DNA of 64,000 bases from Herbiconiux sp. VKM Ac-1786. Lineage in GTDB: Bacteria; Actinomycetota; Actinomycetes; Actinomycetales; Microbacteriaceae. Shown here one piece after another: positions 18,518 to 21,195 of the stretch (the first letter of the stretch is position 1; every line of letters begins with the position of its first letter). Location: assembly GCF_015350805.1 (NCBI RefSeq), contig NZ_JADKSG010000002.1, positions 868,001 through 932,000 on the forward strand, in the 5' to 3' direction. A program made the translations under genes and the position numbers. The notes under the pieces are model-generated. The model saw nothing but the letters and a program-made list of their open reading frames with translations, ran no database searches and had not been told where the DNA came from.

Positions 18518-18965
18518 CAACAGCGTACGACAACGGCGCTGGTGGAGATGGGGGGAATTGAACCCCCGTCCACTACTGTGATTCCGCGCCTTCTACGGGC
18601 GTAGCCTGTGCAGGCGTTCTGCTCGGCCCCGACCTTTGCCACAGGCACCTAGGTCGACGGGCCCAGTCACAGTGCAAGTCCCACGTGACCCTGAGACACA
18701 GTCACGCAGCAATCTCTCTAGATAATGCCGGAACCCGGGTAGAGAGCATTCCCGGACCGACAGTTGCTATTTAGCTAGGAAGGAAGACCTAGGCCGCGAG
18801 GGCGAAGGTGGCCTTCTTGGCCGCAACAGTGCTGTTTGAATTGGCACTTATGTTTTGCGGAGGGCGTTAACGAGATAACCCCGCATCCTCGGCCCGCTTC
18901 TCGCAGTTTCGCAGGCAGTGTCGAAACCGATCATCCCCGCGATGGGCCGTTGTCGTACGCTGTTG
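18518..18965. repeat. Perfect 20-bp inverted repeat flanking ssrA
   Basis: The 20 bases at 18518-18537 are the exact reverse complement of 18946-18965. One arm ends 2 nt beyond the encoded CCA of tmRNA and the other stops 7 nt before its 5' end. In the precursor RNA the arms would form a terminal stem that extends the acceptor stem. See the related finding. Confidence 0.9.
18540..18938 (-). ncRNA. ssrA: Transfer-messenger RNA (tmRNA)
   Basis: About 399 nt, one-piece. The 5' end GGGGATG (from 18938) pairs with CATCTCC before the encoded ACCA at 18540. The T-arm (GGGGG TTCAATT CCCCC) and the 5' GGGGATGATCGGTTTCGACA signature are clear. The resume codon is GCC at 18845-18843; the tag reads ANSNSTVAAKKATFALAA and ends at TAG 18791-18789, with the usual ALAA degradation signal. 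Rescues stalled ribosomes together with SmpB, encoded 1.8 kb away. Annotated 5' and 3' ends are inferred from base pairing. Confidence 0.97.
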
Positions 18966-19006
18966 AGTTTCCAAATGCACCGGATGCTCATCCGCTGCAG
19001 CCCTCT

Positions 19007-19012
19007 AGTATA
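19007..19012 (-). promoter_or_regulatory. Candidate -10 box (TATACT) of ssrA
   Basis: The best -10 match upstream of tmRNA. A start about 7 nt downstream would give a roughly 60-nt leader that contains the complete 5' inverted-repeat arm. No clear -35 hexamer. The same bases read on the plus strand could also serve the SIMPL gene. Confidence 0.4.
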
Positions 19013-19062: not shown

Positions 19063-19746
19063 ATGCCAGAGACCATCATCACCGTCGCCGGCACCGGCCG
19101 GCTGCGCCGCACCCCCGAACGCGCGAAGGTGCGCATCGGCATCGGCTTCGAGGGCTCCAAGCGCGACAGCGTGCTCGCCGCCACCCGCGCCGCCCACGAG
19201 TCGGTCACGGGCTCCCTCGTCACGCTCCTGCACCCCGACGGCGGCCCCGTCATCGACTGGACCTCGGAGGACATCCGGGTCTGGGGCCAGCGCCCCTACA
19301 GCCCCGACGGCTCCCGGCTGCCGGTCGAGTTCCACAGCGCCGTCTTCGTCGACGCCGAGTTCGGGGACTTCGAGGCGCTCTCCGAGTGGATCGACGTCGT
19401 CTCCGCCGGTGACGGCATCGCGGTCGACGGCATCGAGTGGCGTCTTGCCCCCGACACCGAGGCCGAGCTGCAGCGCGAGGTGCGCCAGGCGGCGATCCAG
19501 GATGCGCTGACCAAGGCCCGCGAGTACGCCGACGCCCTCGGGCTCGGCACGGTCACCGCGCTCTCGCTGAGCGACCCCGGGTTGCTCGACGACCCCTCGG
19601 CGGGCTCCTCCGGCGGCGGCCAGCCGCGCATGCTGGCGATGGCTAAGTCCTCCGGCGGCGGCGGGATCGAGCTGCGACCGAACGCCATCGTGATCGAGGC
19701 CTCGGTGCACGCGCGCTTCAGCGCCGCTCCCCCGGTCGCCCGATGA
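19063..19746 (+). CDS. SIMPL (DUF541) domain protein
   Basis: 227 aa. ITVAGTGRLRRTPERAKVRIGIGFEG is the N-terminal strand pattern of SIMPL proteins, followed by DALTKAREYADALGLGTVTA in the middle. Most relatives are exported, but this one has no signal peptide. A Gly/Ser-rich loop lies about residues 183-205. It overlaps the downstream SDR by 4 nt (ATGA). Function unknown. Confidence 0.8.
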   Translation: MPETIITVAGTGRLRRTPERAKVRIGIGFEGSKRDSVLAATRAAHESVTGSLVTLLHPDGGPVIDWTSEDIRVWGQRPYSPDGSRLPVEFHSAVFVDAEFGDFEALSEWIDVVSAGDGIAVDGIEWRLAPDTEAELQREVRQAAIQDALTKAREYADALGLGTVTALSLSDPGLLDDPSAGSSGGGQPRMLAMAKSSGGGGIELRPNAIVIEASVHARFSAAPPVAR

Positions 19747-20669
19747 ACGACGAGCTGCGTGGGCGCCACGTCGTCGTCACCGGCGGCACGGGCGGGCTCG
19801 GCTACTGGGCGAGCGAGCAGCTGGCCGCCCGCGGCGCCTCGGTCGTGATCGCCGCCCGCTCCCCCGAGAAGGGTGCGGCCGCGCTGGCCTCCCTCGAGCG
19901 GCACGTCCCCGGCGCCGACGCGCGCTTCGTGCGCCTCGACCTCGCCGACCTCGCCTCGGTCGAGGCGGCCGCCGCGGAACTGGCCGCGCTCCCGCCGATC
20001 GACGCCCTGATCGCCAACGCCGGCGTGCTCTCGAGCCACGGCCGGCAGCTCACCGCCGACGGCTTCGAGTCGATGATCGGCACCAACCTGCTCGGCCACA
20101 CCGCCCTGATCGGCCGCCTGCTGCCGCGGATGCTCGAGCAGGACAGCACGCCCGGCCACCCCGCTCCCCGCATCGTGAGCCTCGGCTCGATCAGTCACGA
20201 GTTCTTCCGGCTGGACCTCGACGAGCTGCAGAGCGAACGCGGACGGTTCCGCGAGTTCCGCACCTACGGGCGGTCGAAGCTCGCCGTGATGACGTTCGCC
20301 TTCGAGCTCGACCGGCGGCTGCGCGCGGCGGGGGCCGACGTGGCGAGCCTGGTCGCGCATCCGGGGTTCGCGGTCGACGAGCTCACGCCGTCGCGCGACA
20401 TCCTGCCGACGCCCAAGACGGCGGGCGCCCTCGTGCGGGCCGGCTACCGTGTCGGCGCGCAGGGCAAGGACGCCGGGGCGCTGCCCCTCGTGGCCGCCGC
20501 CGTCGATCCGCGCTCCGCGGGCGGACAGTACTGGGGTCCGAGCGGCTGGCGCCAGCTGAAGGGCCGCCCCGCGATCGTGGCCGCGAAACCGTACGCGCGG
20601 GACTGCGCCGTCGCCGAGCGGTTGTGGGCCGCCGCCGAGGAGCTCACGAGCATCCGTTACCCGGTCTGA
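19743..20669 (+). CDS. Short-chain dehydrogenase/reductase
   Basis: 308 aa. Rossmann motif TGGTGGLG near residue 14, LDLADLAS, the NAG motif (ANAGVL) and the catalytic YGRSK (about residue 177), with Ser in GSISHEFF upstream. The sequence resembles the retinol-dehydrogenase/protochlorophyllide-reductase-like SDR branch by length and spacing. Substrate unknown. Translationally coupled to the SIMPL protein. Confidence 0.85.
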   Translation: MNDELRGRHVVVTGGTGGLGYWASEQLAARGASVVIAARSPEKGAAALASLERHVPGADARFVRLDLADLASVEAAAAELAALPPIDALIANAGVLSSHGRQLTADGFESMIGTNLLGHTALIGRLLPRMLEQDSTPGHPAPRIVSLGSISHEFFRLDLDELQSERGRFREFRTYGRSKLAVMTFAFELDRRLRAAGADVASLVAHPGFAVDELTPSRDILPTPKTAGALVRAGYRVGAQGKDAGALPLVAAAVDPRSAGGQYWGPSGWRQLKGRPAIVAAKPYARDCAVAERLWAAAEELTSIRYPV

Positions 20670-20718: not shown

Positions 20719-21195
20719 TCAGTCGCCGAGGTTGCGGCGGCCGGCCATGGCGCGGTCGGCCTCGCGCTTGTCCTGGCGCTCGCGCAGGGTCTGGCGCTTG
20801 TCGTACTCGCGCTTGCCCTTGGCGACCGCGATCTCGACCTTCGCCCGGCCGTCGAGGAAGTAGAGCCGCAGGGGGACGAGCGTGTAGCCGCCCTCTTTGG
20901 TCTTGTGCGAGATCTTGATGATCTGCTCCTTGTGCAGGAGCATCTTGCGCTTGCGGCGGGGCGGGTGGTTGTTCCACGTGCCCTCGTTGTACTCGGGGAT
21001 GTGCACGGCGTCGAGCCAGGCCTCCCCGCCGTCGATGAAGGCGTAGCCGTCGACGAGCGAGGCGCGGCCGGCGCGCAGCGACTTGACCTCGGTGCCGGTG
21101 AGCACGAGGCCGGCCTCGTAGGTGTCTTCGATGGTGTAGTCGTGGCGCGCCTTGCGGTTGGTCGCGACGACCTTCTCTCCGCGTTCGCGGGGCAC
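20719..21195 (-). CDS. smpB: SsrA-binding protein SmpB
   Basis: 158 aa, GTG start with AGGAG 6 nt upstream. Core motifs: [47 protein letters not shown], and the basic [20 protein letters not shown] tail that enters the decoding centre. Binds the tRNA-like end of tmRNA and delivers it to stalled ribosomes. Lies downstream of ftsX in the conserved order prfB-ftsE-ftsX-smpB, 80 nt after ftsX, so it may be read from the same transcript. Confidence 0.97.

Follow-up and report, generated by a model that had tools for sequence, protein, structure and literature searches.

A leader-trailer helix and an rRNA-type leader motif at the tmRNA gene of Herbiconiux and other Microbacteriaceae

Passages of a study of Escherichia coli (PMC10250234) state that the helix between rRNA leader and trailer needs 17 bp or more and that boxC lies within it; in one model described there, boxC stays at the polymerase until the trailer arrives. 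The sequence of boxC counted for far less than the helix, which speaks against the motif being strictly required, and the same passages call the role of boxC for rRNA unclear (PMC10250234). For Mycobacterium tuberculosis, a passage of PMC6614801 describes binding of NusA to boxC of the rrn leader. This element also forms one strand of the duplex for RNase III, and the passage proposes that NusA presents the boxC strand to its partner. In the actinobacterium Propionibacterium acnes, the complementary sequences flanking 16S and 23S rRNA carry mapped staggered cuts that have been ascribed to RNase III (in a passage of PMC3848588 that does not treat the tmRNA ends). RNase III is also involved in maturation of the Bacillus subtilis small cytoplasmic (4.5S) RNA, for which the passage concerned does not mention an rrn-type leader motif (PMC3386247). 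The 4.5S RNA and tmRNA both derive from precursors of small housekeeping RNAs, but RNA and lineage differ. The precursor of E. coli 10Sa RNA (tmRNA) is also trimmed at both ends. RNase III reportedly has an effect on its maturation, and we know of no closing stem in 10Sa RNA comparable to the helix described here.

The locus analysed here is ssrA of Herbiconiux sp. VKM Ac-1786, in a window of 64,000 nucleotides (the whole stretch of DNA studied). As in rRNA leader-trailer helices, the RNA is closed by complementary flanks, here of 20 bp, and its leader strand has the same motif as the rrn operons of its own genome. It differs from rRNA in being a tmRNA of about 400 nt made from a putative promoter of its own, for which we infer a cut by RNase III. 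The rRNA leader-trailer module is the closest known kind for this stem. A limited search of titles and abstracts in the open-licence literature found no description of an rrn-type leader or of this module on ssrA.

The tmRNA precursor and its closing helix

The following features were assigned, with their basis in brackets:

18540..18938, minus strand: tmRNA gene (ssrA) with tag ANSNSTVAAKKATFALAA (ARAGORN, and RF00023 at 158.7 bits)
18946..18965, minus strand: 5' arm of the leader-trailer helix (exact repeat, fold, covariation)
18518..18537, minus strand: 3' arm of the same helix, starting 2 nt past the CCA (exact repeat, fold, covariation)
18939..18945, minus strand: 7-nt spacer from the 5' arm to the mature 5' end (tmRNA ends and repeat position)
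18960..18974, minus strand: rrn-type (nut-like) leader motif TTGGAAACTCAACAG, which shares its 3' part with the 5' arm (pattern census, rrn leaders, kept where unpaired)
18976..18999, minus strand: leader hairpin immediately upstream of the motif (seen in the window; shuffle tests on relatives)
19007..19012, minus strand: putative -10-like element TATACT, predicted start near 19000 (read by eye)

The match to the RF00023 covariance model, together with the encoded tag and CCA, identifies the gene as tmRNA. An exact inverted repeat around it had been reported in the initial annotation, and the two arms are indeed reverse complements at 20 of 20 positions; ARAGORN and RF00023 also agree with the reported placing of the 3' arm 2 nt past the CCA and of the 5' arm 7 nt before the mature 5' end. 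When the precursor (19010-18500) is folded, the arms form a single uninterrupted 20-bp helix that closes it, with a minimum free energy of -225.6 kcal/mol (z -4.4) that none of 100 shuffles equalled. The arm 20-mer has no second copy in the window, where shuffling expects 0 even with 3 mismatches, and is single in the whole genome with up to 3 mismatches allowed. A sigma-70 consensus scan reported no promoter match, TATACT at 19012-19007 included; read by eye, this hexamer may be the -10-like element of ssrA, with a predicted start near 19000, and given its place upstream of the 5' arm, the transcript should include the arm. In the same window smpB (20719-21195, minus strand, recognised from its translation) is separated from ssrA by two plus-strand open frames (19063-19746 and 19743-20669).

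The gene is present in all 16 searched genomes of the genus, and its flanks always contain two complementary arms, with letters that vary between species. A structure-blind MAFFT alignment was made of 15 of these 16 loci, omitting L017, the contig of which ends early. Over the 20 pairs, 92.3% of the cells are standard pairs, against 21.0-45.7% when the partner is slid by 1-3 columns, and both-sided changes occur in 10 of the 20 pairs (27 cells). None of 500 shuffles matched the alignment in cells paired, both-sided pairs, both-sided cells or covariation score, and further pair types were fewer than in shuffles (11 vs 13.4). A wider set of 153 distinct stem-type loci comprised 62 from the family, 15 from the genus, 6 from the order and 70 from a named set, the latter selected by an exact pattern requiring the motif (at least 119 stretches and at least 80 loci, of which 75 were usable and 70 distinct). 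Here 44 loci have their own trailer as the best partner of all 153 and 102 have it among the top 5%, the own-pair scores sum to 6446 compared with a permuted mean of 3681 and a maximum of 3896 in 2000 permutations, relatedness being left in, and the stem score is at least 30 in 132 loci.

The inverted repeat is an RNA helix kept by selection. A long complementary leader and trailer (20/20) close the ssrA precursor and compensatory change keeps them paired, both as in an rRNA-type leader-trailer processing helix. The initial annotation had made its proposal of processing depend on conservation and covariation of the flanks in Microbacteriaceae; both were found, and the proposal is supported at the level of structure. 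A comparison of G-U with A-C mismatches between the strands was equal overall (76 to 76) and 40 to 20 at the freely varying positions 11-24, which is weak evidence for the sense strand.

A leader motif shared with the rRNA operons

The ssrA leader has the sequence AACTCAACAGCGTAC across the outer part of the 5' arm, and this arm begins inside the rRNA-leader motif. The exact sequence AACTCAACAGYGTRC occurs at three places only in the whole genome, at ssrA and near both ends of a single contig. These contig ends are rrn leaders, as one continues into 16S (L037) and the other has a nearly identical leader up to the contig end (L038); the 16S-23S spacer of this genome carries TTTGAGAACTACACAGTGGACGC. 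A sequence is thus common to ssrA and the rrn leaders of the same genome, as it would be for a nut-like (boxC) element. In the rrn operons the motif is one strand of both closing helices: its region in the pre-16S leader pairs with the 16S-23S spacer over 20 pairs (CTTGAGAACTCAACAGCGTGCA with TGCACGCTGTTGGGTCCTGAGG), and its region before 23S pairs with the 23S trailer over 43 pairs. Because the ssrA 5' arm overlaps the rRNA leader motif itself, the parallel to pre-rRNA stems is closer than first proposed in the initial annotation. The first half of the rrn motif, ACTTTGAGAA, is found again just after 5S in both rrn operons (end of L039, L040 and L041).

Among the 16 genomes of the genus, TTGRNAACTNNACAG has 66 exact matches, of which 28 are of the rrn-leader type TTGAGAACTCAACAG, 17 of the rrn-spacer type TTGAGAACTACACAG, and 13 lie at ssrA by coordinates; the remaining 8 are seven copies of TTGAAAACTGGACAG (G006, G014) and one of TTGAGAACTAGACAG (G014). 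The reversed motif gave 0 matches in each genome. The rrn context was confirmed in the own genome and is deduced elsewhere from identity, plus a spacing of about 2 kb when on one contig, and the comparison of rrn with ssrA motifs covers one genus. In the three other ssrA leaders (G007, G012, G014) the motif has one mismatch. The rnpB gene served as a control: in these 16 genomes it carries the motif within two mismatches in 0/16 cases, and its stem scores are 14.5-32.5, with 2/16 over the ssrA null cut of 29.4, compared with at least 36 for ssrA in 16/16. The sequence TTGAAAACTGGACAG is present in only two members of the genus, G006 and G014, in 3 and 4 copies, respectively, some within 110 nt of a contig start; the open reading frames of one such locus of 1.5 kb (L436) include no obvious transposase.

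Constancy of the motif was assessed in 72 stem-bearing loci of the genus and family; the stem and one half of the motif, ACAG (or ATAG), were the criteria of choice. In the other half, AACT, the two adenines and the thymine are invariant where unpaired (A 63/63, A 49/49, T 30/30), whereas the C is variable (57 C, 10 T, 5 G). As these three letters are fixed even where unpaired, the 5' strand seems to serve a separate function in addition to pairing.

The NusA-bound RNA of the M. tuberculosis rrn nut site, which we take to be GAACUCAAUAG, matches 9 of 11 positions of the ssrA leader (AAACTCAACAG) and 10 of 11 of the own rrn leader (GAACTCAACAG). Like boxC of M. tuberculosis, which is both bound by NusA and a strand of the processing duplex, the ssrA motif is a helix strand, and NusA may bind it as well; partly through these assumed letters, we infer a link of the ssrA motif to boxC and NusA. 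Text searches of the open-licence literature gave no match for these letters and, for GAGAACTCAA, 64 matches, of which the 15 listed look unrelated by title. The boxA of B. subtilis is TCTTTGAAAACT, and part of the ssrA motif may be boxA rather than, or besides, boxC.

Taxonomic range of the helix and of the motif

For the range of the stem, 269 tmRNA loci were collected, of which two could not be oriented (L282, L288) and four had short flanks (L131, L240, L258, L284), so that 263 were used. They are the best-scoring loci per search plus hand-picked stretches, hence no random draw, mostly one per genus within the family and one or few per family at higher ranks. The 95 nt that precede the gene were scored for local pairing with the 32 nt that follow it, and the score was compared with a null in which partners were swapped from more distant loci, with its 99% point as cut. 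The stem exceeds this cut in 16/16 loci of the genus and 58/72 of the family Microbacteriaceae, and in 3/47 of other families of the order, 2/66 of the class and 2/62 of the phylum, the last two counts being near chance level. A lineage-specific route, raised as a possibility in the initial annotation, agrees with this distribution, as the stem is largely restricted to Microbacteriaceae and rare elsewhere in order, class and phylum. Two other scores were discarded: duplex energies over 110-nt flanks discriminated poorly (11/16 genus and 5/72 family loci under the 1% null), and with 80-nt trailers a looser score of pairing mainly picked up terminator hairpins. Both gave way to the 32-nt trailers and a motif-anchored test.

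The anchored test starts from the motif and reaches 70 nt into the trailer, with a cut of 30.0 (the 99% point of 880 swapped pairs). It was passed by 78 of the 88 genus and family loci. Two of the ten failures lie at the cut (L057, 30.0; L175, 29.5), the motif of L172 and L187 lies immediately at the mature 5' end, and L054, L058, L183 and L187 are from genomes of 0.9-1.5 Mb. With a stricter score 137 stems were obtained, with a median of 20 Watson-Crick pairs. Since the stem is absent in most of the class and in these ten loci, it is not needed for tmRNA as such. The 7-nt spacer of the initial annotation holds for this genus but not for the rest of the family, where 19 to 77 nt separate the end of the motif from the mature 5' end in 62 of the 64 loci with a motif.

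Among the matches listed for the named set, an upstream-displaced motif was found in many genera of Microbacteriaceae, in Nostocoides, Phycicoccus, Knoellia and Janibacter, and in one Streptomyces. Four order-level loci of one family (f17: L207, L095, L085, L087) would belong to the Phycicoccus group, judging from the likeness of L095 to L320. In a distant actinobacterial ssrA (L268 of G387, phylum level), TTTGACAGCTGAATACG starts a closing stem of 21 pairs that scores 31.0 against a null 99% point of 28.9; this may be an ancient or separately evolved instance of the arrangement, or may be due to chance. Some relatives (G083, G163, G225) have two tmRNA genes above the family cut-off; those of G083 are about 1 kb apart on the same strand (C7:175332-175707 and 176728-177104).

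The motif itself ranges more widely. Allowing up to 2 mismatches to TGANAACTNNACA, it was found in 16/16 loci of the genus, 64/72 of the family, 39/47 of the order, 37/66 of the class and 11/62 of the phylum, compared with 0, 2, 1, 2 and 1, respectively, for its reverse complement as control. It ends no more than 2 nt from the mature 5' end in 29/39 order and 33/37 class loci, but in only 2/64 of the family and 0/16 of the genus. These positions indicate two architectures, i.e. a motif at the 5' end without a stem in much of the class, and a motif displaced by the stem in Microbacteriaceae. The hairpin before the motif folds under the 5th percentile of its own shuffles in 9/16 genus and 25/64 family loci (0.8 and 3.2 expected), and in 8/39 order and 11/37 class loci. 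In the rrn leaders of the own genome, a boxB-like hairpin folded no better than shuffles.

A proposed maturation route and its alternatives

A gene for RNase III was found in all 40 genomes tested, stem-bearing and stemless alike, and its presence therefore fails to separate the two. In an rnc mutant of Streptomyces venezuelae ssrA RNA goes up; the passage concerned suggests stress as one cause and states that ssrA was not found in the RNase III induction data (PMC12096830). No stem was seen at the Streptomyces-like class loci, the lineage of S. venezuelae. A terminator-like hairpin with a T-run follows ssrA in 0/16 genus, 19/57 stem-bearing family and 39/96 stemless order and class loci, and the hairpins start at a median of 28 nt after the CCA in the stem-bearing family loci and of 6 nt in the stemless ones. 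A perfect hairpin of at least 7 bp after the CCA is present in 76 of the 96 stemless loci, against 34 in shuffles. The lack of a T-run hairpin in the genus is in line with a role of the helix in 3'-end formation, but is not proof of it.

We propose, as the probable explanation, that pre-tmRNA has an rrn-type maturation module, consisting of a nut-like motif and a leader-trailer helix, held by NusA and other Nus factors and probably cut by RNase III. This scheme applies to ssrA the models described above for rRNA. The nascent ssrA leader would expose the motif TTGRNAACTNNACAG, also present in the leaders of 16S and 23S in that genome, and NusA with its partners would hold it at RNA polymerase during synthesis of the tmRNA of about 400 nt. 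The emerging trailer would then pair with the held leader strand to form the helix, in this genome of 20 bp. A cut by RNase III, the enzyme that cleaves the corresponding rRNA helices of other bacteria, would probably follow, after which RNase P would generate the mature 5' end and exonucleases would trim the few nucleotides after the CCA. As the genus loci showed no hairpin of the terminator type with a T-run behind ssrA, the helix may also set the 3' end of the transcript.

An alternative is that the helix chiefly serves as a cap that protects against exonucleases or forms the 3' end, without an RNase III step, and that the 5' arm merely follows a conserved leader. Its position, where stemless order and class loci often have a hairpin after the CCA, would suit such a cap, as would the missing T-run hairpin of the genus; the 19/57 stem-bearing family loci that also have a terminator-like hairpin, however, show that stem and terminator coexist, and a cap leaves the rrn motif on the 5' strand unexplained. 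We consider this reading unlikely. Still less credit is given to the motif acting alone, as an antitermination or elongation signal on ssrA, with the helix as a by-product that removes leader and trailer. The wider spread of the motif than of the stem (37/66 class loci, 33 of them at the mature 5' end, vs 2/66 in the control) speaks for it, but the strong covariation shows that pairing itself is selected, and a gene of about 400 nt hardly needs antitermination for processivity.

The flanking repeats could also be taken for the ends of a mobile element or for a duplication at an integration site, as tmRNA genes are known integration sites and the repeats flank the gene. Integration sites, however, yield direct repeats. 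The arms are unique in the genome and change together base by base across species and genera, on which grounds this reading was ruled out and is given practically no weight.

In Microbacteriaceae, the presence around ssrA of a leader signal and a closing stem as around rRNA suggests that the same machinery makes and trims both RNAs. In a broader and more tentative reading, which we hold to be possible rather than probable, tmRNA of Actinomycetes would join the rRNAs as the third client of their antitermination and maturation machinery, with NusA recruited to ssrA by a nut-like leader element across much of the class and the full rrn module of Microbacteriaceae tying the supply of rescue RNA to ribosome synthesis. 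A short single-gene transcript with a nut-like site and a helix would also be a compact system for studying the role of NusA and boxC in leader-trailer pairing. If the proposed route is true, the ribosome-rescue RNA depends on the very signals of rRNA for its transcription and trimming, and the tmRNA supply of these bacteria may follow ribosome synthesis.
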